Assembly (NCBI RefSeq): GCF_008704395.1
Contig: NZ_CP023695.1
Location: 1-64,000, forward strand
Reading direction: 5' to 3'
From: Streptomyces alboniger
GTDB lineage: Bacteria > Actinomycetota > Actinomycetes > Streptomycetales > Streptomycetaceae
Length of the DNA: 64,000 nucleotides
In this document: positions 36,334-60,362 of the stretch, piece after piece
How positions within the stretch are numbered: the stretch's first letter is position 1
How the letters are laid out: every line of letters begins with the position of its first letter
Notes under the pieces: model-generated
Databases searched by the model: none
What the model saw: only the letters and a program-made list of their open reading frames with translations
Told to the model about the DNA's origin: nothing
Translations under genes and position numbers: made by a program

Positions 36334-37569
36334 CTACACGATGCTCAGGGGCGCGGGCAGTGGGAAGACCAGCTTGCCGCCGCGGGAGCGGAATTCGCCT
36401 TCCCGCTCGATGAATCCGTCCCTGTAGACCCATGGGAGCACCAGCAGCTGGTCAGGGCGTTGTGCGAGAGCCTCCTTCTCGGAGACGATGGGGATGTGGG
36501 TGCCCGGGGTGAACCGGCCGGCCTTCTCCTGGCTGACCTCTCCGATGCACGGCAGGCTGTCCTCGGTGATGCCGCAGTACTGGAGAATCACGTTTCCCTT
36601 GGTGGACGCGCCGTAGCCCAGGGTCAGCTTGCCGTCCTTGCGCGAGGTGTCGAGGAAGTCACGCAGGTGTTCGCGGTGTTCGCGCACACGCTCGCCGAAC
36701 GACTCGAAGGGCGCCATGGTGTCGAGCCGCAGCCCGGCCTCCCGGGCACGCAAGCGGTTCAGCGCCGCCTCGTCACGCCGGTGCCCCGAGCCCTGTCTGC
36801 CGAGGGTGACGCAGAGGCTGCCGCCGTACACCTCGGTGATCTCCGCTCTCACGACGTCGAGGCCGACGCGCTCGGCCATCCACTCGATCTGGCTGAGTGC
36901 GTAGTACTCCAGGTGCTCGTGGCATATCACGTCATAGGCGGTCGCCTCGAGCATCGCCGGAAGATAGCTCATCTCCAGCATCCACACACCGTCGTCAGCG
37001 AGGGTCGCCTTTACGTCCTCCATGAACCGGAGCGGGTCGGGCAGGTCGTAGAACATTGCGATCGAGGTGATGACCTTGGCCCGGCGGGAGCCGTAGTGAG
37101 CGGCGAAGACCTCACGGGAGAAGAAGTTGGGGATCAGGTGGATGTGTTCGGGATAGAACTCTCGCCATTTCTCGCCCGTCGGATCCACTCCGACGAGAGT
37201 CCGGCCGTCCGCCGGGTAAGCGGACAGCAAGGTCCCGTCGTTGCTTCCGATGTCCAGGACCAGGTCCTCGGGTCCGATGTCGACCAGCTTGGTGAGCTCG
37301 TCCACCTTGCCGCGAAGATGGTTGATCATGAAGGGGCGGATACCCGAGCGGTAACCGTATTGATCGCCGTACATCAGGCTGAGGTCGGCGGTGTGCCGGA
37401 GCTGGACGAGACCGCATCCGTCCGGCGAGCACTTGACCAGGTCGAGTGGGGCGGTCGGCACGACTTGCGTGCGGCTGCGAGGGAATACGCCGGTCAGTGC
37501 CTGTTCTCCCAGATCCAGCACCTGAAGCAGTGTCCGATTGCCGCACACACGGCACTCCGCGATGGTCAT
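36334..37569 (-). CDS. NDP-sugar C-methyltransferase (TylCIII/EryBIII type)
   Basis: A 411-residue three-part enzyme. The N-terminal zinc-binding segment is CRVCGNRTLLQVLDLGEQ with a second Cys pair (CSPDGC). The SAM-binding core is VLDIGSNDGTLLS (about 105-117) with MSYLPAML and ICHEHLEYY. The C-terminal domain has LGYGASTKGNVILQYCGI. This is the family that adds a methyl group to a carbon next to the keto group of an NDP-4-keto-deoxysugar, as in mycarose and vancosamine formation. ATG 37569 has GAGAGG 9 bp upstream. It is last in the minus-strand sugar operon, 125 bp after the 3-dehydratase gene. The position methylated here (C-3 is usual) cannot be proved. Confidence 0.88.
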   Translation of the reverse strand: MTIAECRVCGNRTLLQVLDLGEQALTGVFPRSRTQVVPTAPLDLVKCSPDGCGLVQLRHTADLSLMYGDQYGYRSGIRPFMINHLRGKVDELTKLVDIGPEDLVLDIGSNDGTLLSAYPADGRTLVGVDPTGEKWREFYPEHIHLIPNFFSREVFAAHYGSRRAKVITSIAMFYDLPDPLRFMEDVKATLADDGVWMLEMSYLPAMLEATAYDVICHEHLEYYALSQIEWMAERVGLDVVRAEITEVYGGSLCVTLGRQGSGHRRDEAALNRLRAREAGLRLDTMAPFESFGERVREHREHLRDFLDTSRKDGKLTLGYGASTKGNVILQYCGITEDSLPCIGEVSQEKAGRFTPGTHIPIVSEKEALAQRPDQLLVLPWVYRDGFIEREGEFRSRGGKLVFPLPAPLSIV

Positions 37570-37694: not shown

Positions 37695-39008
37695 TCAGCG
37701 CGGACTCCCCTTCGCGAACGACCAGATTTCGCGGACCACATAGTCGATCATTTCGTCGGTCACACCGGGGTAGATGCCGGTCCACAATGTGTCGCTGGCG
37801 ACCTTGTCGCTGTTGGACAAGCTGCCAGATATCCGGTACTCGACGTTTTCATATGCGGGGTGACGGGTGAGGTTGCCGCTGAACATCAGCCGGGTGCTGA
37901 TGCGTTTTGACTCCAGATAGAGTTGCAGGTCCCGGCGGGAGTACGGTGCTGAATCCTCGACCGTCAGCGTAAAGCCGAACCAGCTTGGGTCACTGTTCGG
38001 GGCAGGTTCGGGCAAGGTAAGGCCCGGCACGTTCTGTAGCCCCGATCTCATGCGGAGCCAGTTCTTGCGTCGACTGTCGCAGAATTCGGACAGCCGCTCC
38101 AACTGGGACAGTCCCAGGGCCGCTTGAAGATCGGTCGCCTTCAGGTTGTATCCCACATGGGAGAAGACGTATTTGTGGTCGTACCCGTAGGGAAGCGTGC
38201 CGAGCTGCCAGCCGAAACGCTTATTGCATCGGTCGTCCTCTCCCGGTTCGCACCAGCAGTCCCGCCCCCAGTCCCGGTAGGACTCGACAAGGCGCGCGAG
38301 TTCCATGCTGCCCGTCAGGACGCAGCCGCCCTCGCCCATCGTGAGGTGGTGAGCCGGGTAGAAGCTGACGGTGCTGAGGTGTCCGAAGGTTCCCGTTTTC
38401 CTGCCGCGATAGGTGGAGCCGACGGCGTCGCAGTTGTCCTCCACGAACCACAGCCCGTACCGGTCGGCCAGCTCCCGGATCTCGGTGGCCTCGAAGGGGT
38501 TACCCAGCGCATGCGCGATCATGATGGCCTTCGTCTTGGGGCCGATCGCCGCCTCCACCAGCTCCGCGGTGGTGTTGTAGGTGCTCAGGTCGATGTCGAC
38601 GAAGACCGGCACCAGTCCGTTCTGGATGATCGGGTTGACCGTGGTCGGGAAACCCGCCGCCACCGTGATCACTTCGTCGCCGCGGCGCAGCGCGCGCTCG
38701 CCCAGCTCCGGTGCGGTCAGCGCCGACAGCGCCAGCAGGTTGGCCGAGGACCCGGAGTTGGTCAGATGGGCCTTGCGCAATCCGAAATAGCCGGCCAGGG
38801 CCCGCTCGAAGCGGATCGCATAGCTCCCGGATGCGATCCGCAGGTCCAGTGCCGCTTCGACCAGTGCCATCCGGTCCGCCGCCGTCAGTACGGCGCCCGA
38901 GGCCAGCACCCGGTTCTCGCCGGGCACCCAGGTGGATGCCTCGGCCCCGACCGCGTGATGGTACGCGTTGACCAGTGAGAGGATCTCGTCCTTGAGGTTG
39001 TCGTTCAT
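37695..39008 (-). CDS. NDP-4-keto-6-deoxyhexose 3-dehydratase (E1/SpnQ/RfbH type)
   Basis: A 437-residue PMP-dependent member of the DegT family. The internal lysine is replaced by histidine in the AHHLTMGEGG motif (about 220), which is diagnostic of C-3 dehydratases rather than aminotransferases. The [2Fe-2S] cysteines are present: EDNCDAVG, then DCWCEPGEDDRC (spacing C-x-C-x7-C). The enzyme removes the C-3 hydroxyl of an NDP-4-keto-deoxyhexose with electrons from a ferredoxin or flavodoxin reductase; no dedicated reductase is in the window. The ATG overlaps the stop of the upstream ketoreductase gene by 4 bp. With the neighbours this points to a 2,3,6-trideoxy or 3,6-dideoxy sugar. Confidence 0.92.
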   Translation of the reverse strand: MNDNLKDEILSLVNAYHHAVGAEASTWVPGENRVLASGAVLTAADRMALVEAALDLRIASGSYAIRFERALAGYFGLRKAHLTNSGSSANLLALSALTAPELGERALRRGDEVITVAAGFPTTVNPIIQNGLVPVFVDIDLSTYNTTAELVEAAIGPKTKAIMIAHALGNPFEATEIRELADRYGLWFVEDNCDAVGSTYRGRKTGTFGHLSTVSFYPAHHLTMGEGGCVLTGSMELARLVESYRDWGRDCWCEPGEDDRCNKRFGWQLGTLPYGYDHKYVFSHVGYNLKATDLQAALGLSQLERLSEFCDSRRKNWLRMRSGLQNVPGLTLPEPAPNSDPSWFGFTLTVEDSAPYSRRDLQLYLESKRISTRLMFSGNLTRHPAYENVEYRISGSLSNSDKVASDTLWTGIYPGVTDEMIDYVVREIWSFAKGSPR

Positions 39009-40015
39009 CGGGTACCTTCCGCGGGGCAGCCAGCAATGGGGTGGGCCTGGCCCTCACCGGCGGTCCGCCAGATCCAGCGCAGGGTCTCCGGCAGCGTCCG
39101 AGCAGCCGACCAGTCCAGGTGGCGCCGAGCCAGAGTGGGATCGGCGATCTGCCAGTCGGCGGCCAGTGACCGGCCGCCGCCCTCGGGCGCCGGGAGCACG
39201 TCGATCGTGAACTCCACTTCGCTGGCCAGTGCCAGCCCGCGGACCAGGTCGTAGGCGCTGCTGGCTTGCCCGGTGCCGAGATTGAGCACCGGTGCGCCCA
39301 CGGGCCGCCGCGAGACGGTCGCACGGAGGATGGCCTCCGCCAGGTCGCGGGCATCGGCGTAGTCGCGGTGCTGTCTCAGGTCGAACAGGGTCAGCCGCGC
39401 CAGGCGTTTGTCCCGCCGTGCCTGCTCGAGCGTCCGCACGGTCTTGCCGAGCAGGCTCGCAGGCGACATGTTCGATCCGATGGCGTTGAAGATGCGCAGG
39501 ACCACCACGTCCAGCGACGCCTGCTGGGCGATCTCGAAGATCCGTCGGGTGCCCCGCAGTTTGCTTCGCCCGTACTCCGACCGCGGTTCCTGCGGGCAGC
39601 TCTCGTCGGTCGCGTGCGGGTGAGGCAGTGATCCGTACTCCAAGGATGAGCCGAGGTGCACCAGGCGGGCGGTGCTGCTGGTGTCGGCCATCGCCAGCGC
39701 CAGTTGCTCCGGGAGCTGGGCATTGGCTGCCTGGAGCAAGGAGGCGTCGTTCCGCCAGATCTCACCGGCGGTGTTGACCACGGCATCCGGGGTGAACCGG
39801 TTGATCATCGAGGCGAACTGAGCCCGTCGCGGACCTCTGTCGTCCAGCTCGGCCACCTCATACCCCGCGGGCACGGCGGGCGGCCGCCGGGTCACCACGG
39901 TGACGTCCGTGCCCGCCGTGGACAGCCTGTTGAGGACATGACGGCCGAGGAATCCGGTGCCGCCGATCAGAAGGACTTTGGTGTGCAGGGTCCCGCCGGA
40001 GGACTCCGAGGTCAT
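39005..40015 (-). CDS. NDP-hexose 4-ketoreductase (extended SDR, TylCIV/EryBIV type)
   Basis: A 336-residue NAD(P)-dependent epimerase/dehydratase-family protein. Nucleotide-binding VLLIGGTGFLGRHVLNRL (about 14-31), substrate-region HLGSSLEYGS and the YxxxK pair in RSEYGRSKLRG. In deoxysugar pathways this family reduces the 4-keto group as the last step before glycosyl transfer. I chose ATG 40015; GTG 40069 has a better-spaced GGAG and would add 18 residues. It overlaps the 3-dehydratase by 4 bp. The alternative function, 4,6-dehydratase, is unlikely because the sequence matches ketoreductases better and lacks the expected DxE pair. Confidence 0.82.
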   Translation of the reverse strand: MTSESSGGTLHTKVLLIGGTGFLGRHVLNRLSTAGTDVTVVTRRPPAVPAGYEVAELDDRGPRRAQFASMINRFTPDAVVNTAGEIWRNDASLLQAANAQLPEQLALAMADTSSTARLVHLGSSLEYGSLPHPHATDESCPQEPRSEYGRSKLRGTRRIFEIAQQASLDVVVLRIFNAIGSNMSPASLLGKTVRTLEQARRDKRLARLTLFDLRQHRDYADARDLAEAILRATVSRRPVGAPVLNLGTGQASSAYDLVRGLALASEVEFTIDVLPAPEGGGRSLAADWQIADPTLARRHLDWSAARTLPETLRWIWRTAGEGQAHPIAGCPAEGTR

Positions 40016-40114
40016 CACCTTCTCTATCCTCTTCGACTTGACGTGGCGCCCGCTGAAAACGGCTGACACAATGAGGTGCTCCTACCGACAACTCCGGTCA
40101 TTATGTTGGCCGTT

Positions 40115-41107
40115 CTAAGGGACCTCGATCCGTACGGCGACGCGTTCCGCGTCGTCAATGATTCGGGCCTGCCGCCTGCTCATCTCTGATTGGTCGAGCG
40201 TGTTCGATCCCGTCAGTACCGCATGCGCGAAGTACCGCACGATATTGCCGAACTGGTCATCCACCGGAAGCGTGATCTCCTCACGGTGATCCTGCCGCTC
40301 GATGCGCAGCACCGGCTGCAAGGACGGCGGCGGCGTGAACGCCCGGTCGAGCGAGAGCAGACCGCTGCTGCCGGCGAACGCGCAGCCGGTCCGATAGGAG
40401 TGCTCCATTCCGAAGACCACGTCGGCCGTCACCCCTGCGGGCGTGCACGCGAGGATACGTCCGGAGACCACGGCACCCGTGCGGGAACGAACCCGCAGCA
40501 CGGCATGGAGCACTTCAAGAGCAGAGCCAAGGTAGTACAGCGCGGCACGGATCGGATAGATGCCCATGTCGAGCAGGGCGCCGCCGCCGATGTCCGGGCG
40601 ATAGCGCATGTTCTCATCCGGCAGCGGCGGGATCGTGAACACGCTCGCGAAGTCCTTCAGCTCGCCGACTGCTTTGGCAGCGAGCATCTGCCGGACACGG
40701 ACGTGCTGCGAGTGATGTGGGAATGCGACGTTCTCCAAGAGCACCAGGTCCCGTGATGCGGCAAGCGCCAGCAGCTCGTCCGTGCTTTTCGCATCCCCCG
40801 TCAGCGGCTTCTCGGCGAGCACATGCTTGCCCGCCCGCAGCGCCCTGGCGACCCAGTGCGCATGCATCATCGCCGGCAGCGGTATGTAGAGCGCGTCGAT
40901 GTCACCAGCGGCGAGAAGCTCCTCATAGCCCAGTACCCGGGGGCCTCCGAAGGCCGCCGCGAAGCGCCTCCCCTTCGCCTCGTCGCGGCTGGCGAGGGCG
41001 GCGACCTCGATGTCGGGGCAGGCGGCCATCGCCGGCAGAGTGCGGCGCCAGGCGATGTCCGCGCAGCCGAGCACGCCGACGCGCAAAGGACCTTGTGCTG
41101 CGGCCAT
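40115..41107 (-). CDS. NDP-hexose 3-ketoreductase (Gfo/Idh/MocA family)
   Basis: A 330-residue oxidoreductase. The N-terminal Rossmann fold is RVGVLGCADIAWRRTLPAM, the catalytic lysine is in VLAEKPLTGD (EKP motif), and the C-terminal alpha/beta domain has GGGALLDMGIYPI with the expected Asp. Relatives (SpnN, OleW, KijD10 type) reduce the 3-keto group left by an NDP-hexose 2,3-dehydratase. The 2,3-dehydratase itself is not in the window. It lies 12 bp downstream of the N-hydroxylase gene and about 100 bp upstream of the 4-ketoreductase, in one minus-strand operon. Confidence 0.87.
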   Translation of the reverse strand: MAAAQGPLRVGVLGCADIAWRRTLPAMAACPDIEVAALASRDEAKGRRFAAAFGGPRVLGYEELLAAGDIDALYIPLPAMMHAHWVARALRAGKHVLAEKPLTGDAKSTDELLALAASRDLVLLENVAFPHHSQHVRVRQMLAAKAVGELKDFASVFTIPPLPDENMRYRPDIGGGALLDMGIYPIRAALYYLGSALEVLHAVLRVRSRTGAVVSGRILACTPAGVTADVVFGMEHSYRTGCAFAGSSGLLSLDRAFTPPPSLQPVLRIERQDHREEITLPVDDQFGNIVRYFAHAVLTGSNTLDQSEMSRRQARIIDDAERVAVRIEVP

Positions 41108-41119
41108 AGTCAGTCCTCA

Positions 41120-42454
41120 TCAGGCAGAGGTGGTCGGTGCGGATGTCGCCGGCCCGTCGGCGGACCGCCGCCGCAGGATGGAATCCGCGATCTCGCCGCC
41201 GCGCACGGCGATGTTCGACAGGAGGGACGACGTCAGTCCATGGGTGTGTTCGGTGCCGCCCTGGAGGTAGATGCCGCACGACACATCCGGTGTGGTCACC
41301 AGCCGGTAGTCGCGGCCGACCTGGTACCTTCCCGCACCGTCACGCAGGCAGTAGCCGTCGAGTTCGCCCAGGACGCCGCTCGGGTCCATGGAGTCGTATC
41401 CGGTGGCGAAGACGAGCGCGTTCACATCGAGGTCCTGGGAACCGCCGTCGAGCAGCGACTCCATAAAGACGCGCGACTCGTTCCCCATCCGTTTGACATT
41501 CGTGACCCGAGCCATGTTCAGGATGTGCAGACGATTGGTTCCGCGCAGTTCGTCCATGTACACACGCTGATAGAGGTCCCGGATGACTTCGTCGTCGGCA
41601 ACCGAATAGTTCGTGTTCTTGTGGTAGCGCCAGAAGGCTTCCCGAGAACGCTCCGTACCGAAATAGTAGTCATCGACCGCCGCGGAGTCGAACACCCGGT
41701 TGGCGAACGGGGTATCGTCCGCAATCGAATAGCCGTAGGACGGAATGATCGCGTAGATATCGGCCTGCGGAAGGCTGTCGTACAGAAATCTGGCGATCTC
41801 GGCCCCGCTCTGGCCGGCCCCTACGACTGCCACCTTCTTCAGGGTCTCCGGGGAGACCTGCTGGAACCTCTCCAGGAACTCGGAGCTGTGCCAGACCCGT
41901 TCGTCGGATGCCACGCCGTCCGGCACCTGGGGGACGAGACCTGTGGAGATCACGACATTGCGGGCGGCGACGGTCCTGATATCGCCCCTGACAGTGTCAC
42001 GCACGTCGACCTGGAGGTACTGGGCAGTTGCGGAAGCAGATTCCGGGGGCAACTGGATTCCTGCGACTTCCGATCCGTAACTGACCTTGCCCGAGAACAA
42101 CGCCTGTGCCCAGTCAAGGTACTGATGGAACTCCTCCCGGGTCGGGAAGAATGTCTGGGTGTTGATGAACTGTTCAAGCCGGCCGGAGGCGTGAAGAAAG
42201 GAGACAAATCCGAACCGCGATACCGGATTGCGGAGTGTTGCCAGGTCCTTCAGGAACGACACCTGCATCGTCGCCGACGGCAGCAGCATATTGCGGTGCC
42301 AGCCGAACGAGGGCTGCCGCTCGAAGAACGCGGAGGTGAGGGGCCCCGCAGAGGCGTCGCCCCCGCTCTCTTCCAGAGCAATCGCGAACGCCAGGTTGGA
42401 CGGCCCGAATCCAACGCCCACGACATCGTATATCTCAGCTGAATTGGCACCCAT
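41120..42454 (-). CDS. L-ornithine N5-monooxygenase (KtzI/SidA family)
   Basis: A 444-residue flavin N-hydroxylase. FAD motif GVGFGPSNLAFAIAL (about 10-24), HRNMLLPSATMQVSFLKDL, NADPH motif VVGAGQSGAEIARFL (about 192-206) and the late ATGYDS signature of ornithine/lysine N-monooxygenases. These enzymes make N5-hydroxyornithine for siderophores or, with a KtzT partner, for piperazic acid. The KtzT-type gene starts divergently 259 bp away, so piperazate is the likelier fate. ATG 42454 has GGAAG about 10 bp upstream. First gene of the minus-strand operon, so its expression may be tied to the sugar genes. Lysine hydroxylation cannot be excluded by sequence alone. Confidence 0.9.
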   Translation of the reverse strand: MGANSAEIYDVVGVGFGPSNLAFAIALEESGGDASAGPLTSAFFERQPSFGWHRNMLLPSATMQVSFLKDLATLRNPVSRFGFVSFLHASGRLEQFINTQTFFPTREEFHQYLDWAQALFSGKVSYGSEVAGIQLPPESASATAQYLQVDVRDTVRGDIRTVAARNVVISTGLVPQVPDGVASDERVWHSSEFLERFQQVSPETLKKVAVVGAGQSGAEIARFLYDSLPQADIYAIIPSYGYSIADDTPFANRVFDSAAVDDYYFGTERSREAFWRYHKNTNYSVADDEVIRDLYQRVYMDELRGTNRLHILNMARVTNVKRMGNESRVFMESLLDGGSQDLDVNALVFATGYDSMDPSGVLGELDGYCLRDGAGRYQVGRDYRLVTTPDVSCGIYLQGGTEHTHGLTSSLLSNIAVRGGEIADSILRRRSADGPATSAPTTSA

Positions 42455-42713
42455 GGAAACACTTCTTCCGCTAGCGTGACTGCAACGTGACGTACGTTTC
42501 GACGGGCTGTTCCACGTAGATCTTCCGTGTTTGGCTTCGACCCCGCATGCTTGCGCAATCACGTTGCATTGCGGACCTGCGGTGCGTCAAGGTTGATAGC
42601 GTCGAGGGCGCATGCAACAGGCCCTGTCCGCCCATCGGCTGTCCTGCCGACGGGACAGGAATCCAACCATTTTGATGCCCTGGCTACTCGACTTCGAGGG
42701 GTGACATAACCGC
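42455..42713. promoter_or_regulatory. Divergent promoter region between the two piperazate genes
   Basis: 259 bp between the N-hydroxylase (minus) and piperazate synthase (plus) starts. GCATGC occurs twice (near 42545 and 42611), and TTGCGCAATCACGTTGCATTGC near 42551 has a loose dyad character. No -10/-35 pair can be fixed confidently. It must drive both arms of the cluster. Confidence 0.5.
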
Positions 42714-43394
42714 ATGTTCGTTCCCCGCCATTACCGTGAACCCGATGGTTCTTGGATGAGCGATCTAATCCGCGGCAATCCGTTGGCCCTGGCAGTGACC
42801 AACGGCGGTGACGACGGGTTGTTGGCCACTCATCTCCCGATTATCCCGGACCACGGTACGGTGATCGATTGGTCGGGCAGCCCGAATGGCACCGTCCTGC
42901 TCGGGCACTTGAACCGGGCCAATCCCCACTGGCGCGCGCTGCGGACCGGCGATGCCGTCCTCCTGGTGTTCACCGGTCCGCACGGCTACGTGTCGCCCGC
43001 GGTGTACGAGGTGACGCCGGCCGCACCGACCTGGAACTTCACCTCGGTGCATGTGCACGGTGTGATAGAGAGGATCGACTCGCTCGAGGAGACGCTCGAC
43101 GTCGTGCGGGCCACGGCGCAGACCTTTGAAAGCAGTTTCGGTTCTGGATGGGATCAGTCAGAATCGATCGACTACTTCCGCAGTATCGTTTCCGGTGTCG
43201 GGGCGTTCCGTGTCACCGTGACAGGCGCTGAGGGCATGTTCAAGCTCAGCCAGGAGCAGTCCCCCGAGGTCCGTGAACGGGTAGAGCAGTCATTCAGCCA
43301 GCGCGCCTGCAGTCGGCACAAGGAAGCCGCGGAGCTCATGAGCCGGCTTTCCCGGAACGGGCAGCTGAAAAGGGCAGGCGGAGGAGTGGAATGA
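42714..43394 (+). CDS. Piperazate synthase (KtzT-like, PaiB family)
   Basis: A 226-residue protein of the FMN-binding/PaiB fold. It has LATHLPIIPDHG, the GHLNRANPHWRAL segment that in KtzT holds the heme-ligating histidine, and the VYEVTPAAPTWNF strand. KtzT-type proteins are heme enzymes that close N5-hydroxyornithine to piperazic acid by forming the N-N bond. Plain PaiB regulators share the fold, so the call rests on the divergent N-hydroxylase and the NRPS setting. ATG 42714. Its stop overlaps the aminotransferase start by 4 bp, placing it first in the plus-strand operon that runs through the PKS genes. Confidence 0.85.
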   Translation: MFVPRHYREPDGSWMSDLIRGNPLALAVTNGGDDGLLATHLPIIPDHGTVIDWSGSPNGTVLLGHLNRANPHWRALRTGDAVLLVFTGPHGYVSPAVYEVTPAAPTWNFTSVHVHGVIERIDSLEETLDVVRATAQTFESSFGSGWDQSESIDYFRSIVSGVGAFRVTVTGAEGMFKLSQEQSPEVRERVEQSFSQRACSRHKEAAELMSRLSRNGQLKRAGGGVE

Positions 43395-44569
43395 CGCGTC
43401 CCACCGACCATGGTCCGCGGATATCGACGAGGGTTGCGGCACTTCAGGGCAATAGCCTGGGGGAGATCTTCCTCATGGCGCGCGAACGCCAGGGAATCGA
43501 TATGGCGCTCGGCACACCCGGATATCCCGAGACCGCTGCCGACATCATCGGGGCAGCAAATGACGCGATACGTGCGGGGAAGAATCAGTATGTCTTCCCC
43601 CCGGGTGATCTGCGGCTGCGGGAGCACATCGCCGCCACCCTCCCGGTGCCGACCGACCCGCAGACGGAGCTGACCGTCACCGTCGGAGGCACCGAGGCCC
43701 TCTTCCTGGCCCTGCACGCGCTCATCGACCCCGGTGACGAGGTCGTCCTGCTCGATCCCGGCTACGAGCAGTTCAGGTCGACGGTCGCCTTCGCGGGCGG
43801 CGTGCCCCGGCATGTCCCCTTGCACGCGCCCGACTGGCGGTTCGACCCCGACGAACTCGCATCCGCCTTCACCTCCCGTACCCGCGTGGTCCTCCTGAAC
43901 TCGCCCGGCAACCCCACGGGCCGTGTGCTGACCCGTCAAGAGCTTGACCAAGTCGCCGAGTTGGCCGGGCGATGGGACGCGACGGTCGTCTGCGACGAGG
44001 TGTACAGCAGCTTCGTCTTCGACGGCCGGGAGCAGACCTCGATCGCCGAGGTGCCCGGCCTGGCGGAGCGCAGCGTGGTGGTCGGCTCGCTCTCCAAGAG
44101 CCACGCGATCAGCGGGTGGCGGCTCGGCTTTGTGCGTGCGGACGCCACGCGCACCACGGCGGTGCGGCGCGTACAGGAGCTGACCACCAACGGCGCCCCT
44201 GGCCCGCTTCAGCTGGCCGTCGGCCAGGCGGCCGGCTCCGCGGACCTGAGGACGGCATCCGAGGAGATGGGCCGCCGCCGCGACTTGGCCCTGGAGATCT
44301 TCACGGGCATGGGCATGAAGATCTTTCCCCCGGAAGGCGGGTGCTTCCTCCTGGCGGACATCGCCCCGCTCACGGGGGGAGGCATGGACGGCCGTGCCTT
44401 CACCCTCGAACTCCTGGAGGCGACCGGGGTCGTGGTTGTCCCCGCGGCCCCCTCCTTCGCCGATCCCGTGCGCGGCGCGCAGTACGTACGCATCGCTTTC
44501 AACCGGCAGTTCGAGCTGCTGCACGAGGTGGAGCGCCGAGTCCGCAGCTTCCGGCCCTGCGGCCAGTGA
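43391..44569 (+). CDS. Class I/II PLP-dependent aminotransferase
   Basis: A 392-residue fold-type I aminotransferase. TVGGTEALFLALHAL, the NSPGNPTGRVL loop, VCDEVYSSFVF (Asp and Tyr contacts to PLP), the Schiff-base lysine in SLSKSHAISGWRLG (about 237), and a C-terminal RIAFNRQ. It resembles aspartate/aromatic-type enzymes that make or degrade an alpha-amino acid for the product. The substrate is not evident; supply of a non-proteinogenic amino acid, or interplay with the hydroxy-acid oxidase at 56201 (hydroxy acid to keto acid to amino acid), is a reasonable inference. Coupled to the piperazate synthase (ATGA), with the P450 12 bp downstream. Confidence 0.85.
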   Translation: MTRPTDHGPRISTRVAALQGNSLGEIFLMARERQGIDMALGTPGYPETAADIIGAANDAIRAGKNQYVFPPGDLRLREHIAATLPVPTDPQTELTVTVGGTEALFLALHALIDPGDEVVLLDPGYEQFRSTVAFAGGVPRHVPLHAPDWRFDPDELASAFTSRTRVVLLNSPGNPTGRVLTRQELDQVAELAGRWDATVVCDEVYSSFVFDGREQTSIAEVPGLAERSVVVGSLSKSHAISGWRLGFVRADATRTTAVRRVQELTTNGAPGPLQLAVGQAAGSADLRTASEEMGRRRDLALEIFTGMGMKIFPPEGGCFLLADIAPLTGGGMDGRAFTLELLEATGVVVVPAAPSFADPVRGAQYVRIAFNRQFELLHEVERRVRSFRPCGQ

Positions 44570-44581
44570 CGAGGTATTCCA

Positions 44582-45751
44582 ATGACCAAAACCACGATCG
44601 ACCAGCTGGGCCCGCTTCCCGACATCTTGCGTCCTGGTCCCGAGGATGTCGTGCGGGTGGTCGCCGGAACGGGCCACCCCTTCTGGCTCGTACGCAGCTA
44701 CACACTGGGCCGGTCGGTCCTTGCGGACCAGAGGTTCAGCCGGGCCGACGCGCTGCGGCCCGGCGCCCCGACGTTCAATGACGCCCAGCCGGCGGCGGAT
44801 TCCATGATGAGCATGGACGGCAAGCGGCACGCCCGTCTGCGGCGCCTGGTCAGCGGCGCGTTCTCCACCGGCCGGATGGCCAGGATGAGCGCCTTCGTGA
44901 CGGACCTGACCGACCGCCGGCTGGACGCGATCGCCAAGACCGGCAACGGTGCGGACCTGATCGAGAACCTCGCCCGACCGCTGCCGCTGTCCGTGCTCAC
45001 CACCATGCTCGGCATTCCCGAACAGGACACGCCCCGCTTCCGCGGGTGGGTGGACGTGCTCTTCGACCTGGAGGTCACCAGCCTCCGCGAGAAGGCCCGA
45101 CGCCGCATCGAACTCATCGAGTACATCACGGAGTTGCTGGACCGCAAGCGCCGTGATCCACGCGATGACCTGCTCAGTGACCTGACCATCGCGCAGGACG
45201 AGGGCGAGCTTTCCACGAACGAACTGCTCACCCTGGGACTCACCCTCCTGATGGCGGGCTACGAGACCACCACCGGCCAGATCGGCCTCTCGCTGCTGGC
45301 GCTGCTGAGCGACCGCAGCGCCTATGAAGAGCTCCTCGCCCACCCCGAGTACGTCGGGAACGCGACGGAGGAGCTGATCCGGCTGGCCCCTGCCACCCCG
45401 CTGACGTTCGTTCGTATCGCCACCGAACCGGTGCGGCTGGGCGATGTCACCGTGCAAAAGGGCGAGGGCGTCGTGGTGGCCCTGCTCCACGGCAACCGCG
45501 ACGCCAAGGTGTTCGCCGAGCCGGCCTCCCTGGACCTCGCCTGCGGGCACGCTTCCCCCCCTCTCACCTTTGGGCACGGCGTGCACCGCTGCCTGGGCGC
45601 ACCCCTGGCGAGACTCCAGCTGCGCATCGTCCTCGAACGGCTCGTGCAGCGCTTCCCGGCGCTGCGGCTCGCTGACGTTGCGGAACCGGTTGTCTGGAAG
45701 GACGGCCTGGGCATACGCGGCCTGTCACGGCTGCTGGTCGACTTTGAATGA
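44582..45751 (+). CDS. Cytochrome P450 (tailoring)
   Basis: A 389-residue bacterial class I P450. I-helix [10 protein letters not shown] (oxygen-activating Thr), ExxR in [10 protein letters not shown], and heme-cysteine loop [15 protein letters not shown] (Cys near residue 342). All catalytic positions are present, so it is an oxidase rather than a P450-like glycosyltransferase activator. It presumably hydroxylates or epoxidises the product or a building block. No ferredoxin gene is visible. The stop overlaps the PKS start (ATGA at 45748). Confidence 0.9.
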
Positions 45752-48700
45752 GGGAAGGCATGTCAGTCACGGACACCCGCGGGGCCCTTGGAGCCGACCC
45801 GATGAGCGGCGGCGAGCGGCGCGAACCGATCGCGATCGTCGGGATGGCCTGCCGCTTTCCCGGCGGCGTGACCTCGCCCGAGGGCCTGTGGCAGCTGGTC
45901 GCCGACGGTGTCGACGCCATCGGCCCCTTCCCGCGCGACCGCGGCTGGGATCTCGACAACCTCTTCCACCCCGACCCCGAACACCCCGGCACCTCCAGCA
46001 CCCGCGAGGGCGGATTCCTCTACGACGCCGCCGAGTTCGACCCCACCCTCTTTGGAATCAGCCCCCGCGAAGCCCTCAGGATGGATCCCCAGCAGCGGCT
46101 GGTCCTGGAGACATGCTGGGAGGCCATCGAGTACGCCGGCATCGACCCCACCACGCTGCGTGACACCCTGACGGGCACCTACTGCGGCCTCATGTACGCC
46201 GAGTACGGGACGCACAAGAAGGAAGCGTTCGCCATCACCGGCAGGCTGCCGAGCGTGCTGTCCGGCCGCGTCGCCCACGTACTGGGCCTGGTGGGTCCTG
46301 CCATGACTGTGGACACGGCCTGCTCCTCCTCCCTGGTCGCCGTCCACCTGGCCGCCACCGCGCTGCGCCGCGGCGAATGCTCCCTGGCCCTGGCGGGAGG
46401 GGCCACCGTCATGGTCAATGCCGCGCCCTTCGTGGAGTTCAGCCGTCAGCACGGTCTGGCCCCCGACGGACGCTGCAAAGCCTTCGCCGCCACCGCCGAC
46501 GGCACCGCCTGGTCCGAAGGCGTCGGCATGCTCCTCCTCGAACGCCTCAGCGACGCCCACCGCCTGGGCCACCCCATCCACGCCGTCATCCAAGGCTCAG
46601 CCCTCAACCACGACGGCGCCGCCAGCGCACTCACCGCCCCAACGGCCCCTCCCAACAAGCCGTCATCCACGCCGCACTCACCGACGCCCACCTCACCCCC
46701 GACACCATCGACGCCATCGAAGCCCACGGCACCGGCACCGCCCTGGGCGACCCCATCGAAGCCCACGCCCTCCTCGCCACCTACGGCACCCACCACACCC
46801 CCCAACACCCCCTCCACCTAGGAACCATCAAATCCAACATCGGCCACACCCAGGCAGCAGCCGGAGTCGCCGGCATCATCAAAATGACCCTGGCCATCCA
46901 CCACGGCCAACTCCCCAAAACCCTCCACACCGACCAACCCTCCCCCCGCATCGACTGGACCCAAGGACACCTCAACCTCCTCACCCACACCCAACCCTGG
47001 CCCCACCACAACCGCCCCCGCCGCGCCGCCATCTCCTCCTTCGGCCTCAGCGGCACCAACGCCCACCTCATCCTCGAACAACCACCCCACCCCCCACCAC
47101 CCACCACGACATCAGCACCACCGCCGACGACAGGGACGGCTCCTTTCCCTGGCTGTTGTCCGGTCAGAGCGAACAGGCGCTGCGTGCCCGGGCCGCGCAC
47201 CTGCACAACCACCTCACCGCCCACCAGGACCTGGCCACCGCCGACGTCGGCCACTCCCTGGCGACCACCCGGACCACCACACACACCCACCGCGCTGCCG
47301 TCCTGGTCACCGGGCGCGCCCAGGCCCTGCGCAGCCTCCAGGCCCTGGCCCAGGGGGAAGCAGCACCTGAGGTCCTCACCCGTAGCAGCACCTCGACAGC
47401 CGGCGCGACCGCCTTCCTCTTCCCCGGCCAGGGCAGCCAGTACCCGGGGGCCGGCCGCGACCTCCACGGCCGCTTCCCCGCCTTCGCCCGCGCCTTCGAC
47501 GAGGCCTGCGCCCATCTCGATGCGCACCTCGAACACGCCCTCAAGGACGTCCTGTTCGCCGCGCCCGGCACCGCGCCATCCGCGCTGCTCCACCAGACCG
47601 CCTACACCCAGCCCGCGCTCTTCGCCCTCGAAGTCGCCTCCTTCCGGCTCCTGGAGCACCACGGGGCTGCCCCCGACCTGCTGCTGGGCCACTCCATCGG
47701 CGAGTTGGCGGCCGCCCATGTGGCGGGTGTCCTCGATCTGGCAGACGCCTGCACCCTCGTCGCCCACCGGGGCCGCCTGATGCAGTTGGCGCCGGCGGGC
47801 GGGCGCATGGTGGCCCTCGAAGCGAGCGAGGAGGAGATCCGCGAGGTGCTCGCCCTCCATGCAGGGCGGCTGGATCTCGCCGCCGTCAACGGGTCGCGGG
47901 ACGTGGTCGTCACGGGTGACGCCGAGGCCGCCGAGGAACTCGCGCAGGACTGGCGCGCCAGGGGCCGCAGGGCCAGTGAGCTGAAGGTCAGCCATGCCTT
48001 CCACTCCCCCCACATGGACGGCCTGCTGGAGGATTTCCGTGACGTCGCCGCCGGGTTGAGGTTCCGCGAACCCCGTATACCGGTCGTCTCCAATCTCACC
48101 GGTCGCCTGGCCACCGCGGCGATGCTGAGGGACCCGGGTTACTGGGTGCGCCAGCTGCGCGGCACCGTCCGCTTTTACGACGGCGTGCGCTTCCTCCAGT
48201 CCCGGGGTGTCACCGAATACGTCGAGATGGGGCACGGGGTGCTGTCCCACCTGGCGCGCCGCAGCCAGGACCCCGGCTCCCCCGGGGTCGTGACGCCCCT
48301 GGTGCGCCGCGGCCACGACCCCCTCAGCACCGTCACCACGGTGCTCGCCCGGCTCGCTTTGAATGGTGCCCGGCTGGATCCGGGAGAGTCCTTCCCCGGC
48401 GGCCGCCGGATCCCCCTGCCCACCTATCCCTTCCAGCGTCAGCACTACTGGCTGAGCACCCCGGCCGCGGGCGAGGACGCTGCCCGCTCCCACCCGGTAC
48501 TCGACGAGGCTCTGGAGCCGGCCGACGGGAGCGGGCTGGTGTTCACGGGCCGCCTGGACGCCGAGGAGATGCCGTGGCTGGCCGACCATACGGTGGCCGG
48601 GACCCCGGTGCTGCCCGGCGCGGGCATCGCGGAGCTCGCGCTCAGTGCCGCCCGCCGGGCCGGTGCGCAGCAGGTGGCCGAACTCACCCTGGAGCAGGCC

Positions 48701-51139
48701 CTGCCCGTCGCCGGGCCCACCGACATACAGCTGATCGTCGGCGCTCGAGGCGAGAACGGCTGCCGTCCGCTGGCGCTCTACTCCCGTGCGGCGAACACCC
48801 GCGGTGGCGCGTGGACCCGGCACGCCGGCGGAATGCTGTCGGACGCGGCGCCGGCGCAGGTGGCCGCACTGCGTTCATGGCCGCCGAGCGGGGCCTCACC
48901 TGTGCCGGTCGAGGACCTGTACCCGCGGCTCGCGGCGCGTGGTTACGCCTACGGCTACACCTTCCGGGGGCTGCGCGAGCTGTGGCGCGAGGGCAGCGAT
49001 CTCTACGCGGTGGTGGCTGCGCGCGCGAAAGCGAGCCGTGACGGCTTCCGTCTGCATCCCGCCGCCCTGGACGCGGCGCTGCACGCGCTGGCCGCCGCCG
49101 AGGGGGACGAGTCCCGGCTCCTGGTGCCCTTCGCATGGCAGGGCCTGACGCTGCACGGGCCCGGCAACGGCCCGCTCCGTGTCCGTCTGCGGCGTGGCGC
49201 GAACGACTCCTGCTCCCTGCTCGTCGCCGACGAGGCGGGCGTCCCGGTCCTCAGTGCGGACAGGCTCGTCCTGCGCGAGTTCAAGCCGCCCGCCGCGGCC
49301 GCGGCGAGCGGCGGCGCGCTGTTCGCCCTGAACTGGACCGATCTCGCTTTCCACACGCCGTTGCTGAGCGGCACGTGGGCCGCGGTGGGCCCGGGCGCCG
49401 AGGCGGTGGCCGGCCTCGTGCAGGCCGGCCGGACAGCGGCAGGCGTCCACACCGGCCTCGACGACCTGCTCGACTCCCTCGACGAGGGCGCCGCGGTCCC
49501 CGAGGTCGTCCTCGCCTTCGTCACGGCGTCCCCGCCCAGCGGTAGCGGACCGGCCGGGGCCGCCGCCCGTGAGGTCCTCGCTCTCCTCCAGCAGTGGCTC
49601 TCCGACAGCCGGTTGGCCGCCGGCCGGCTCGTCCTGGTCACCCGGGACGCGGTGGGCGCGCCCGGCGACACCCGTGCAGACCCGGAGCACGCCGCCGTGT
49701 GGGGCCTGGTCCGCGCCGCGCAGTCGGAACACCCCGGGCGATTCGCGCTGATCGACATCGACGGCGCCCCCCAGTCCGTCCGCGGCCTGCTCAGGGCCGC
49801 CGCCTCGAAGGAGCCCCAACTCGCCCTGCGCGGCGGCCGCTTCCTTGCGCCCCGCCTACACCCTCACCGCCCGTCCCCCTGCGGCCACGCCCCCTTCGAC
49901 CGGCACAGCCGTGTCCTGATCACCGGCGGCCTGGGCGCCCTGGGACGACTCATCGCCCGTCACCTGGTGGAACGCTACGGAGTTTCCCAGCTGGTGCTCG
50001 TCGGGCGGCGCGGCCCGCGCACACCCGGCGCGGCAAAGTTCGTCGCCGACCTGGAGGGCGCCGGCGTGCGCGTGACGGTCTCGGCAGGCGATGTCGGCGA
50101 CCGCGCCGCCCTGGCCGCCGTCCTGGACGGCCTCGAGGAACCGCCGACCGCGGTGGTGCACGCGGCCGGCGTCCTTGACGACACCATCGTGCAGCGGCTG
50201 ACCCCCGAACGCCTGGACGCCGTCCTGCGGCCGAAGGCCGACGCGGCCCTGCATCTTCATGAACTGACCCGGCACTGGGACCTGTCCGCCTTCGTGCTGT
50301 TCTCGTCCTTCTCCGGCACGCTCGGCCTGCCGGGGCAGGGCAACTATGCGGCGGCCAACGCCTACCTCGACGCACTGGCGCTGAAGCGCCGTGCCCAGGG
50401 CCTGCCGGCCACGTCACTGGCCTGGGGACGGTGGGAGGCCGGGGAGGGTCTCGGCAGCGGGCTGGGCACGCCGGAGCTACAGCGCCTGAGCCGCCACGGA
50501 GCTGCCGCGCTGTCGGTCCAGGACGGCCTGGCCCTCTTCGACGCCGCCGCCACGGACACCGCGACCGTCCTGCTGCCCGCCCGCCTCGACACGCGGGAAC
50601 TGACCGCGGAGTCGGCCCCGCCGCTGCTGCGCGCGCTCGTTCCCGCCGCCACGACGCCCCGCCGCCCGGTGCCCGCCCCCTCGGCCCCGGGCGCGGCCGC
50701 CGCGCTGCGCCGCCGCCTGGCGGATGCGCCCCGTACGGCACGGCACCACCTTCTCCTTGAGGCGGTACGCGCCGAGGTGGCCGCCGTCCTCGAGCTGTCC
50801 GCTGCGGATCAGGTGCCGGTCGGCGCCCGCTTCCAGGACCTGGGCGTGGACTCCCTGACCGCGCTCGAACTGCATCAGCGGATCACCTCGGTGACGGGTG
50901 TGCGGCTGGCCTCGACGGCCGTCTTCGACCACGGCAGCCCCGCCGCCCTCACCGATCGTCTGATCGCGGAGCTCGCCGCCGAGAACGGCCAGGAGCAGAA
51001 CCCGGCGGAGCAGAACCCCGAACCGCCGTACGAGGACACCTCCCTGGACACGATGAGCGCCGAGGAACTGGTCCGCCTGGCCTTGGGGACGCACCGCGGT
51101 GAACGCACCCCGGCACAGATCGAGGGAGAGTCCCGATGA
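45748..51139 (+). CDS. Type I PKS module 1: KS-AT-DH-KR-ACP (frame breaks in KS)
   Basis: One extension module with no loading domain. KS with [13 protein letters not shown] with [11 protein letters not shown] and HAFHSPHM, the malonyl-CoA pattern. DH with [10 protein letters not shown] and [13 protein letters not shown] with [30 protein letters not shown] and the VLDD of B-type reductases. ACP with [11 protein letters not shown]-terminal docking helix [12 protein letters not shown]. The product would be a trans- or cis-2-enoyl unit. The reading frame is broken twice: one base appears missing at about 46640 (ACCGCCCCAACGG where module 2 has one more C), and again at about 47095 after the KS in a C-rich stretch. 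Everything downstream is intact. Real loss or an assembly error in the repeat are both possible. Confidence 0.88.
46294..47107 (+). repeat. KS repeat, copy 1 (near-identical to 51724-52538)
   Basis: About 0.81 kb of KS-coding DNA from GGTCCTGCCATGACTGTGGA to the C-rich end of the KS matches the second PKS at an offset of 5430-5431 bp. Differences are a short block around 46423-46436 (module 2 reads a different [14 protein letters not shown] segment), three or four single-base changes, and one missing C. This suggests recent gene conversion or duplication. The KS ends of both copies share the same frame break. Confidence 0.85.
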
Positions 51140-54100
51140 CGGCATCGCACGACGAACTGGTCGACGCACTGCGGGCGGCCCTGAAGGACAATCAGCAGCT
51201 TCGTGCCGCGGCCACCAAGGCGGAGCGGTACGTCGGCCCGATCGCCATCGTCGGGATGGCATGCCGCTACCCCGGCGGCGTCGAGTCCCCGCAGGACCTG
51301 TGGCAGCTGGTGATGGACGAGCGCGACGTGATCGGGCCGTTCCCCAAGGACCGCGGCTGGGACCTGTCCTCGCTGTACGACCCTGACGCGCGGGGGCCGG
51401 GGACGTCGTATGTCAAGGAGGGCGGATTCCTCGACGACGCCACTAGCTTCGACGCCGAGTTCTTCCGGATCTCGCCGCGCGAGGCGCATGCGATGGACCC
51501 GCAGCACCGGCTGCTGCTGGAGACCGCGTGGGAGGCGTTCGAGGACGCGGGGATCGTGCCGTCGGCGCTGCACGGCAGCCGCACGGGCGTTTTCGTCGGC
51601 ACCATGTACGACGACTACGGCTACCGTGTCCTGCCCTCGCCGGCCGAGTACGAGGGCTATATGGCCCTGGGCAGCGCGAGCGGCTTCGCCTCCGGGCGTA
51701 TCTCCCACAGCTTCGGGTTCCAGGGTCCTGCCATGACTGTGGACACGGCCTGCTCCTCCTCCCTGGTCGCCGTCCACCTGGCCGCCACCGCGCTGCGCCG
51801 GGGCGAATGCTCCCTGGCCCTGGCGGGAGGGGCCACGACCATGGCGACACCGGTGTCGTTCGTGGAGTTCAGCCGTCAGCACGGTCTGGCCCCCGACGGA
51901 CGCTGCAAAGCCTTCGCCGCCACCGCCGACGGCACCGCCTGGTCCGAAGGCGTCGGCATGCTCCTCCTCGAACGCCTCAGCGACGCCCACCGTCTGGGCC
52001 ACCCCATCCACGCCGTCATCCAAGGCTCAGCCCTCAACCACGACGGCGCCGCCAGCGCACTCACCGCCCCCAACGGCCCCTCCCAACAAGCCGTCATCCA
52101 CGCCGCACTCACCGACGCCCACCTCACCCCCGACACCATCGACGCCATCGAAGCCCACGGCACCGGCACCGCCCTGGGAGACCCCATCGAAGCCCACGCC
52201 CTCCTCGCCACCTACGGCACCCACCACACCCCCCAACACCCCCTCCACCTAGGAACCATCAAATCCAACATCGGCCACACCCAGGCAGCAGCCGGAGTCG
52301 CCGGCATCATCAAAATGACCCTGGCCATCCACCACGGCCAACTCCCCAAAACCCTCCACACCGACCAACCCTCCCCCCGCATCGACTGGACCCAAGGACA
52401 CCTCAACCTCCTCACCCACACCCAACCCTGGCCCCACCACAACCGCCCCCGCCGCGCCGCCATCTCCTCCTTCGGCCTCAGCGGCACCAACGCCCACCTC
52501 ATCCTCGAACAACCACCCCACCCCCCACCACCCACCAGGACGAGAACACGGGTGGCAGGGACGCGGCGCCGCTGCCCGTGGTCCCCGTCCTGGTGTCCGG
52601 GCACAGTCCGGCCGCGCTACAGGCACAAGCCCGCCGGGTCCTGGACTGGCTGACCGCCGCGCAGGCCGCTCCCGCGGACCTTGTCGACGTCGGTTTCTCG
52701 CTTGCCACCACCCGCAGCCACCTCGCGCACCGCGCGGTCCTGCTGCCCGAAGAGGAGGGCGGCCTGCTGGAGGGGCTGCACGCCCTGGCGGCGGATCCGG
52801 ACGGCGCCGACGCCATACGCGGGCGGGCCACCGAGGGGCGCACCGCCCTCCTGTTCTGCGGGGACGGCCTTGAACGCCCCGGCACCGGCCGGGAGCTGTA
52901 CCGGACGTTCCCGGCTTTCGCCTGCGCGTTCGACGCGGTCTGCCGTGAACTCGACGGCCACCTGGACCAGCCCCTGCGCACGGTCCTCTTCGGTTCCCAG
53001 AGCGCGCTGCCCGAGCGCCCCGAACACGCACAACTCGCGCTCTTCGCCTACCACGTCGCCCTGTTCCGGCTGCTGGAGTCCTGTGGGGTCGCGCCCGTCG
53101 CCGTCCTTGGCCACGGCATCGGCGCGGTCTGCGCCGCTCATGCCGCCGGCGTGCTCGACCTCGCCGACGCGGCCCAACTCGCAGTGGCCCACAGTCGGTT
53201 GGCGAAGAAGGCGGCGGGAAGCGGAGCCGTGGCCGTCAAGAACCTGAGCTTTCGTGAGCCAGCACTCACGGTGGTCTCAAGCCTGACCGGACGGGCGATG
53301 CGGGATCACGAGTTCACCGACCCCGAGCACTGGGCCCGCCAGGCGGTGGAGACGTTCCGCTTCGAGGACGGCGTGCGGTGCCTGAGCGAGCTGGGATGCA
53401 GCCGGCTGGTGGAGGTCGGCCCGTCCGGTGACCTCACCGCCAGGGTCGCCGACCACTTCGCCGGCCAGGGCGCACCCACCGCGGTCGCGGCGCAGCGCGA
53501 TAAGGAGCCCGAGGCCGCCGCTCTGGTAGGCGCACTCGCCCGGCTGCACGCGGTCGGCGCCGACGTCGACTGGGCCGGCGTGTTCGCGGACCGCGGCGCG
53601 CGTCGGATCCCGCTGCCCACCTACGCCTTCCAGCGGCGCCGCTACTGGATCGACGTACCGCAGCGCACCGCTGCCCGCCCGGCCGGTATCACCGATCTCG
53701 ACCACCCGGTCCTGGCCGCCGCCACGGAGATACCGGCGCCGGAGGGGGTCATGTTCACCGGACGGCTCTCGCACGCCACGCTCCCCTGGCTGGCCGACCA
53801 CCAGGTCGCCGGCAGGACCCTGCTGCCTGGCACCGCCCTGCTCGAGGCGGTGGTGAGCGCCGCCCGTGTGACGGGCGCCGACACGGTCGAGGAACTCGTC
53901 CACGAAGAGATCCTGGACGTGCCGGACGGCGCGGAGTTCGACCTGCGGGTCTTCCTCGCGGCCGCCGACGCCGACGGCCGCAGCGCGGTCACCGTGCACG
54001 CCCGCCGGGCGGACACCGAGGAGCCGGCCTGGTTCCGGTGCGCCCACGGCACCGTCGCCCGGCTCGGATCGCAGCTGGGCGCCGAGCCGCGGCGCGCCCT

Positions 54101-60076: not shown

Positions 60077-60101
60077 CTCCATCCCTTCTGTTGCTCGTTC
60101 T

Positions 60102-60149: not shown

Positions 60150-60362
60150 CTACTCGCCCATGGCCAGGCGCAGGCTCCTGGGCCGCAGATCGGTCCAGTT
60201 CTCCTCTATGTGGGCAAGGCACTTCGGCCGGTCCTGCGGACCGAAGGCGATCCGCCAGCCGTCCGGGATGTGTGCGAAGGACGGCCAGAGGGAGTGCTGT
60301 TCCTCGTCGTTCACCAGGACGTAGAACGTGCCGTTCTCGTCGTCGAAGGGGTTCGTGGTCAC
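60150..60362 (-). CDS. MbtH-like protein
   Basis: 70 residues with the full MbtH signature: [33 protein letters not shown], and the tail [11 protein letters not shown]. MbtH proteins bind and activate NRPS adenylation domains. GTG start; its Shine-Dalgarno GGAG abuts the NRPS stop codon, 9 bp away, so translation is coupled. It almost certainly serves the A domain of the adjacent NRPS and others outside the window. Confidence 0.97.

Follow-up and report, generated by a model that had tools for sequence, protein, structure and literature searches.

A divergent pair of genes at 41120-43394 of the Streptomyces alboniger stretch analysed here (the window: 64,000 nucleotides, bases 1-64000 of NZ_CP023695.1, a single 7.96-Mb contig) resembles the genes that supply piperazic acid, and lies among genes for deoxysugars and a polyketide synthase (PKS). 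The locus raises the question of what product the piperazate would be made for. The cluster was found to span from approximately 36 kb to approximately 108 kb, past the right end of the window, and the sequence was read on to 138.5 kb. Genes were called with a simple codon-usage script, and all 39 genes called between 36334 and 110602 were run against Pfam. Comparisons with the literature (including PMC3943440, PMC5577134, PMC6510168, PMC10888640 and PMC13274692) rest, here and below, on parts of each paper.

The reading that we favour, and consider fairly probable, is that the piperazate pair serves a hexapeptide assembled by two nonribosomal peptide synthetases (NRPSs), NRPS2 followed by NRPS1, that a detached PKS cassette supplies an amino acid, and that deoxysugars are added by glycosyltransferases. 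All the reactions in the host, the NRPS2-then-NRPS1 order, the ring, the site of the PKS-derived residue, the sugar acceptor and the starter unit are what we infer from these genes.

The piperazate gene pair

The gene at 41120-42562(-) encodes a putative L-ornithine N5-hydroxylase of the KtzI type, 89% identical to a protein of S. orinoci. The protein is a member of the Pfam family Lys_Orn_oxgnase (347 bits) and its nearest relative among solved structures is KtzI (4tlx, 557 bits), MbtG being second (449 bits). Since the alignment to KtzI begins at residue 38, the ATG at 42454 is a likelier start than the GTG at 42562.

The gene at 42714-43394(+) encodes a putative heme piperazate synthase of the KtzT/PipS type (Pfam FMN_bind_2/PaiB-like). 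The best matches in the PDB were piperazate synthase 9ebk/9ebm (339 bits), KtzT 9jn4-6 (215 bits), SbPZS 9qlk (208 bits) and LnzB 9kea (196 bits), the enzyme names of 9jn5, 9kea and 9qlk being taken from PMC13274692; lower scores were obtained for NohD (at most 159 bits) and PaiB (97 bits). Of the 13 active-site residues of SbPZS taken from the same paper, the window protein shares 11 (T39, H65, N67, N70, Y98, A104, P105, T106, Y154, I158 and K177), the heme-ligand His among them. Asp177 and Lys178 of SbPZS are replaced by E181 and Q182, and E and Q are also found in the aligned PipS and KtzT chains; the SbPZS numbering was assumed from the first aligned Met and is consistent with all 13 residue letters. 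The KLSQ motif between M and E, given for piperazate synthases in PMC10888640, is present as MFKLSQE, and likewise in the aligned PipS and KtzT chains. On the PDB scores and the active-site residues, a PaiB-type regulator was rejected.

These results indicate, as far as sequence can tell, that the pair most likely makes piperazic acid, a rare N-N-bonded amino acid, for its host cluster. KtzI would hydroxylate ornithine on its side-chain nitrogen, after which KtzT, a heme enzyme, would close the N-N bond to give L-piperazate. The initial annotation had described a divergent hydroxylase/PaiB-type pair and had read it as piperazate supply; both open reading frames were recovered with KtzI and piperazate synthases as nearest relatives, and the supply is further borne out by two adenylation (A) domains of the same cluster that carry the exact code of HmtL-A1 (see below).

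Divergence of the two genes was common in a survey of 80 KtzT loci, with flanks of at most 10 kb each, some of them short: KtzI was present in 67, and in 49 it lay on the other strand less than 1 kb from KtzT. Matches to the synthase at E<=0.001 occurred in 214 genomes of a family-level sample of 394, mostly weak, and matches of at least 58% identity in 28 genomes of that sample besides the genome of the window. A scan of the KtzI-KtzT intergenic gap found 0 promoters and 0 terminators.

A second KtzI-KtzT-like pair is present in the same genome at 6084268-6087444(-), its synthase 48% identical to the KtzT of the window. Its nearest solved relatives are piperazate synthases; the next gene encodes a DAO-family oxidase, a tautomerase gene lies close by, and no NRPS-sized gene was found within the 20 kb read, where the largest gene call was 1024 aa.

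A gene for an LmbU-family regulator was found at 82083-82676(-), 18 kb to the right of the window and 39 kb from KtzT (NF038070, 223 bits against a cut-off of 125). In the survey, a homologue lay convergent to KtzT and less than 2 kb downstream of it in 61 of the 80 piperazate loci (a raw count; median gap 181 bp), was placed elsewhere in eight, and was absent from the flanks searched in 11. As HmtD of himastatin is described as a positive regulator of the LmbU family (PMC6510168), and given the 61 loci with a homologue, regulators of this family may accompany piperazate loci in general.

Peptide synthetases, sugar genes and related clusters

Only the 3' part of NRPS1 (60372-64000(-)) lies in the window, next to a gene for an MbtH-like protein (60150-60362(-)). 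The further NRPS modules, which the initial annotation had recommended seeking to the right, are there: NRPS1 runs to 76691 and NRPS2 is located at 88405-96429. The domain order of NRPS1 is C-A-T-E-C-A-T-C-A-T-E-C-A-T-TE, where C, T, E and TE stand for condensation, thiolation, epimerization and thioesterase domains, and that of NRPS2 is A-T-E-C-(C remnant)-A(+FkbM methyltransferase)-T; the E and C-remnant domains were assigned by motif. The A-domain codes were taken by alignment, except for the tenth letter, K, which was supplied.

The codes of NRPS1 are, in order, DVFSVAAYAK, DVFSVAAYAK, DAWMTGAVCK and DTYIWVGAAK, and those of NRPS2 are DMWTVGAVWK and DFWNVGMVHK. The first two, from A domains beyond the window, are identical to the code given for piperazate in HmtL-A1 (PMC3943440). 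Pfam revealed no stand-alone C gene in the set of 39 called genes (36 to 111 kb). The code DFWNVGMVHK of NRPS2 we take to be a threonine code, and the NRPS2 A domain split by an FkbM-type methyltransferase presumably resembles KtzH of kutzneride.

Because NRPS2 has no first C domain and NRPS1 ends in a TE, the peptide would be begun by NRPS2 and completed by NRPS1. The predicted hexapeptide is D-X1 / Thr-like residue / D-Piz / L-Piz / D-X5 / X6, where Piz is piperazate, and the terminal thioesterase of NRPS1 would free it, probably as a ring.

The initial annotation had also pointed to deoxysugar genes and a macrolide-type glycosyltransferase; both are present, and two more glycosyltransferases were found beyond the window. 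To the left of the piperazate pair are genes for an NDP-hexose C-methyltransferase-like protein (36334-37569(-); Pfam Methyltransf_13/23/14; 92% identity in S. orinoci), an RfbH-type PLP-dependent 3-dehydratase for 3-deoxygenation of the sugar (37695-39008(-); NCBIfam NF011936, 664 bits against a cut-off of 423), a proposed sugar 4-ketoreductase of the NAD epimerase/dehydratase family (39005-40069(-); Pfam Epimerase) and a proposed sugar 3-ketoreductase of the GFO/IDH/MocA family (40115-41107(-); Pfam). RmlA-like, RmlB-like and 2,3-dehydratase (PF03559) genes also occur in the cluster, and an epimerase-family gene at 86930 gave a partial profile match only. The set fits a di- or trideoxyhexose, possibly of two kinds, to judge from the gene families.

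Three EryCIII-like glycosyltransferases are encoded at 57510, 78128 and 100144. The one at 57510-58802(-), which alone was scored against NCBIfam, is of the activator-dependent macrolide type (TIGR04516, 453.7 bits against a cut-off of 440; Pfam EryCIII-like). Up to three glycosyltransferases would then put di- or trideoxysugars on the peptide. Next to 57510-58802 lies the gene of a cytochrome P450 (P450b; 58862-60082(-); profile match), 93% identical in S. orinoci. The cluster's three P450s all scored below the cut-off of 343 for the activator family TIGR04515 (130, 128 and 114).

A protein search with the glycosyltransferase, in which 8000 candidates were scored, listed 58 relatives at E<=1e-150 with generic names or none; among those listed, several strains seemingly have two to four copies. 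In the KtzT survey, relatives of the sugar and glycosyltransferase genes of at least 40% identity occurred in 6 of the 80 loci, in three of them RfbH alone. In S. werraensis, Streptomyces sp. DH41 and S. parvulus, KtzI has an RfbH-type 3-dehydratase (65%) approximately 4-5 kb away; the other sugar genes tested were not found there at 40% identity or more in the flanks searched.

The cluster recurs in three other genomes. In S. orinoci NRRL B-3379 (NZ_PHNC01000008) it is syntenic over approximately 71 kb, from the C-methyltransferase to an MIO enzyme described below, mostly with 75-93% identity, the 3-ketoreductase matching in two pieces. Streptomyces sp. CB01201 and Actinomadura soli encode NRPS1 (71% and 70%, respectively), NRPS2, KtzI/KtzT, sugar enzymes, glycosyltransferases, the aminotransferase, three P450s (P450a, P450b and P450c) and the FMN oxidase in another order, in A. 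soli split over two contigs. DVFSVAAYAK occurs twice in all four genomes. The NRPS2 codes are the same in all four, as are those of NRPS1, except for the last domain, which reads DTYAWVGAAK in CB01201 and A. soli. P450c was dropped as a marker of the cluster family, since matches at E<=1e-120 occur in 93 of 392 genomes.

CB01201 differs in having a berberine-type oxidase, an extra two-module NRPS, an RmlC-like gene, and a PKS with a loading part and three extending modules. Neither the CB01201 stretch nor A. soli contig C188 gave a match to the C-methyltransferase at E<=1e-20. An RmlC-like gene, recognized by its first residues, is found in CB01201 and A. soli; a relative of the CB01201 protein was found in neither the window region nor the S. 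orinoci stretch, so that D-sugars are possible. At the edge of the S. alboniger cluster is a gene for a dimethylargininase/arginine-dihydrolase-like protein (109793-110602(+)), with a 34% relative at the edge of the CB01201 cluster. Far to the left, at 3207-6194(+), lies the gene of an NNH1-NACHT ATPase, a protein of the defence or signalling type.

The polyketide synthase genes and the rival readings

To the right of the pair, and on the same strand as KtzT, are genes for a class I aminotransferase (43391-44569(+); Pfam Aminotran_1_2), the cytochrome P450 P450a (44582-45751(+); profile match), PKS module 1 (45748-51139(+); KS-AT-DH-KR-ACP), PKS module 2 (51136-56204(+); KS-AT(defective)-DH-KR-ACP) and an FMN-dependent alpha-hydroxy-acid oxidase (56201-57439(+); profile match), with neither a loading module nor a TE in the PKS. 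The hydroxy-acid oxidase of the initial annotation was thus found in the neighbourhood. The two PKS modules that it reported are also present; as sequenced, both are frame-broken, near 46.6 and 47.1 kb in the first and near 52.5 kb in the second, whose acyltransferase (AT2) is moreover defective. Supply of hydroxyphenylglycine by the aminotransferase and a hydroxymandelate-oxidase-like enzyme was considered and rejected: no hydroxymandelate synthase was found by Pfam among the 39 genes, and the top scores of the oxidase were to lactate oxidases.

Relatives of P450a (51-61%, E<=1e-100) are rare, being found in 9 of 391 other Streptomyces genomes. An aminotransferase adjoins the P450a relative in five of the nine, and the aminotransferase relatives beside P450a homologues are 55-75% identical. 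A type I PKS lies beside it in seven, with none in the stretch of genome G495 and the contig of G452 ending there. In four, an FMN oxidase (65-69%) is on the same contig, 16-21 kb away. In CB01201 (by Pfam), and in A. soli, G505 and G701 (by BLAST), the FMN oxidase and a thioesterase form one fused protein. In G505 the set lies near NRPSs in which a motif search found five codes, none of them for piperazate.

A precedent is provided by ilamycin, for which PMC5577134 describes a TE-less PKS with identical ketosynthase (KS) twins and one mutated AT that, together with a P450 and a proposed aminotransferase, yields free 2-amino-4-hexenoic acid; the link rests on knock-outs and feeding, and the P450 and PKS mutants gave no product. 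In the window, too, a P450 homologue stands beside a TE-less PKS with twin KS domains and a crippled AT. P450a is 51% identical to the P450 of genome G009, whose cluster is of the ilamycin type in appearance: it encodes this P450, a 4785-aa PKS, a type II thioesterase (TEII), MbtH, an aminotransferase, a nitric oxide synthase (21 kb from the P450) and an 8011-aa NRPS, and a 267-aa gene assumed to encode a putative hydrolase.

By analogy, the PKS, P450a, FMN oxidase and aminotransferase are probably a cassette for a non-proteinogenic alpha-amino acid. The PKS looks like a supplier of a building block because NRPS2 has an A domain at its start, a stand-alone C gene was not found among the 39 genes, and the set recurs elsewhere, also near NRPSs in which no piperazate code was found. 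P450a would alpha-hydroxylate the PKS chain; the FMN oxidase would convert the hydroxy product to the alpha-keto acid, and transamination would give the alpha-amino acid. This would be loaded by one of the A domains, leaving the PKS outside the peptide line.

A block at 101.5-108.4 kb suggests how the chain may start. It encodes an acyl carrier protein (ACP), a KS with its Cys kept, a partner resembling a chain length factor (CLF) without that Cys, an adenylating enzyme, an AdmH-like MIO enzyme (TIGR04475, 874 bits against a cut-off of 800; AdmH, 710 bits) and a second ACP. A small FabZ/ApeI-like protein, below both cut-offs, is also encoded in the cluster and had no S. orinoci match among those of at least 60% identity. 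In CB01201 the PKS has a loading part (a partial KS match, AT and ACP) that is lacking in the window and S. orinoci, and neither the CB01201 stretch nor A. soli contig C188 yielded a relative of the MIO enzyme or the CLF. This complementary distribution suggests, on sequence grounds, that the MIO/KS/CLF block supplies an aryl starter. The starter is possibly phenylalanine-derived, the MIO enzyme being an ammonia-lyase or an aminomutase. We put forward tentatively, as a serious possibility, that these clusters make a family of sugar-bearing piperazate cyclohexapeptides and that their PKS, together with a TE-linked FMN oxidase, a P450 and an aminotransferase, is a detached amino-acid factory, the phenylalanine-derived MIO/KS/CLF starter of S. 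alboniger and S. orinoci replacing the loading part of CB01201.

Several observations weigh against an amino-acid cassette. The set is not constant: the FMN oxidase relative (63-67%) is on another contig in G268, G430 and G452, and G495 and G009 have only distant relatives of it; the G495 stretch has neither an aminotransferase nor a type I PKS, and G650, G701 and G009 have no close aminotransferase near their P450a relatives. In G009 the close FMN-oxidase relative (52%) is 0.56 Mb away, and the sole relative near the PKS, just after the NRPS gene, is 39-40% identical. The aminotransferases differ as well: that of the window and that of G009, which stood in for IlaH, share 33% over 146 aa and thus belong to different groups. 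In the parts of PMC5577134 on which we draw, the ilamycin aminotransferase mutant kept approximately two-thirds of the product, and the pathway names no flavin oxidase. In the S. alboniger genome itself, frame breaks interrupt both PKS genes in the present sequence, and AT2 is defective. No substrate was matched to the codes DMWTVGAVWK, DAWMTGAVCK and DTYIWVGAAK, so that any placing of the PKS-derived residue is guesswork. In principle, a PKS chain could also be accepted by the first C domain of NRPS1.

That last point bears on a true PKS-NRPS hybrid, in which a two-module acyl chain would cap or enter the peptide. In azinothricin-type clusters a piperazate hexadepsipeptide is joined to an acyl chain made by a PKS (PMC10888640, PMC3943440), PKS and NRPS genes share one cluster here, and the unassigned type of the first C domain of NRPS1 would allow it to receive such a chain. 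We nevertheless judge a hybrid unlikely, given the A domain at the start of NRPS2, the lack of a stand-alone C gene, and the recurrence of the PKS elsewhere with P450a, aminotransferase and FMN oxidase, also near the NRPSs with the five other codes. The term PKS-NRPS cluster of the initial annotation thus holds in that glycosylation, PKS and NRPS genes occur together, and is doubtful as regards one joint assembly line. The broken PKS could instead mark a decaying cluster with an altered or absent product: three frame breaks fall in the two KS regions, and AT2 matches only positions 3-141 of a 319-position profile and reads GHGIG. The breaks, however, fall within a segment common to KS1 and KS2, or at its end (46293-47110 and 51723-52541; 820 bp, 98% identity), a kind of repeat prone to assembly error, and S. 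orinoci, with a comparable KS repeat (817 bp, 97%), has each module in one uninterrupted frame. A sequencing or assembly error is the simpler reading, although the breaks may be real. The remaining genes were called open, most with S. orinoci relatives of at least 75% identity, and a similar AT2 gap is seen by eye in S. orinoci, where the serine is present (the AT2 of CB01201 is full-length); decay is accordingly improbable.

Two further explanations concern the cluster as a whole. The PKS and sugar genes are in operons separate from the NRPS genes, as would be expected of two unrelated adjoining clusters, one for a glycosylated polyketide and one for a piperazate peptide; yet the gene set recurs on one contig of CB01201, reordered and with sugar genes between KtzI/KtzT and NRPS1, and the same set is present in A. 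soli on its two contigs, which makes this highly improbable. The initial annotation had itself named N-hydroxyornithine for a hydroxamate siderophore as the outcome that would speak against piperazate, and KtzI does share its flavoprotein family with siderophore ornithine hydroxylases. The adjacent piperazate synthase and the two piperazate-code A domains of the TE-bearing NRPS1 argue for the opposite, making a siderophore very unlikely indeed, the least probable of the readings considered. To our knowledge, none of the six A codes is an ornithine code.

The KS repeat also offers an observation of its own. The PKS genes of the window and S. orinoci differ by approximately 12%, and each genome's own KS pair is near-identical (97-98%), for which reason the likeness of KS1 and KS2 is probably due to recurrent KS gene conversion.

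Comparison with known systems

The initial annotation had called the combination of genes unusual and without a match to a known compound. Rarity must be qualified, as three other genomes hold the same kind of cluster and glycosyltransferase relatives occur in more strains; the absence of a matched product stands. No compound with two piperazates, deoxysugars and a PKS cassette was found among the entries listed in the literature surveyed, subscription journals being outside its scope. Likewise, no matching compound was found among the entries listed for S. orinoci, CB01201 and A. soli (including the parts of PMC11761653 used), and no glycosylated piperazate product among the literature entries listed. 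Bioactive rings are abundant among piperazate peptides, and this cluster family, with four sequenced carriers, predicts a glycosylated member. A P450 and an FMN oxidase, sometimes fused to a TE and often with an aminotransferase, may convert polyketides to alpha-amino acids, a capacity that would be of use in peptide engineering.

Among known systems, the cluster resembles those of kutzneride and himastatin in its KtzI/KtzT-type pair, an A code identical to that of HmtL-A1, six NRPS modules and, for himastatin, an LmbU-family regulator; we know of no deoxysugar or glycosyltransferase genes and no PKS amino-acid cassette in either. With the azinothricin family (polyoxypeptin, aurantimycin, diperamycin) it shares six NRPS modules, two piperazates, a PKS in the cluster and release by a TE. 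In that family the PKS makes the N-acyl chain, whereas here NRPS2 begins with an A domain, the PKS is accompanied by putative amino-acid-forming enzymes, and sugar genes are present. The ilamycin/rufomycin pathway (IlaC-H) is similar in its TE-less PKS with twin KS domains and one crippled AT, P450 homologue, TEII and aminotransferase; its G009 version differs in the aminotransferase group and has no piperazate code or sugar-gene relatives in the stretches read. Every enzyme of the S. alboniger cluster is thus of a known kind, and the novelty lies in bringing together two piperazates, deoxysugars and a PKS cassette that probably serves amino-acid supply apart from the peptide line.

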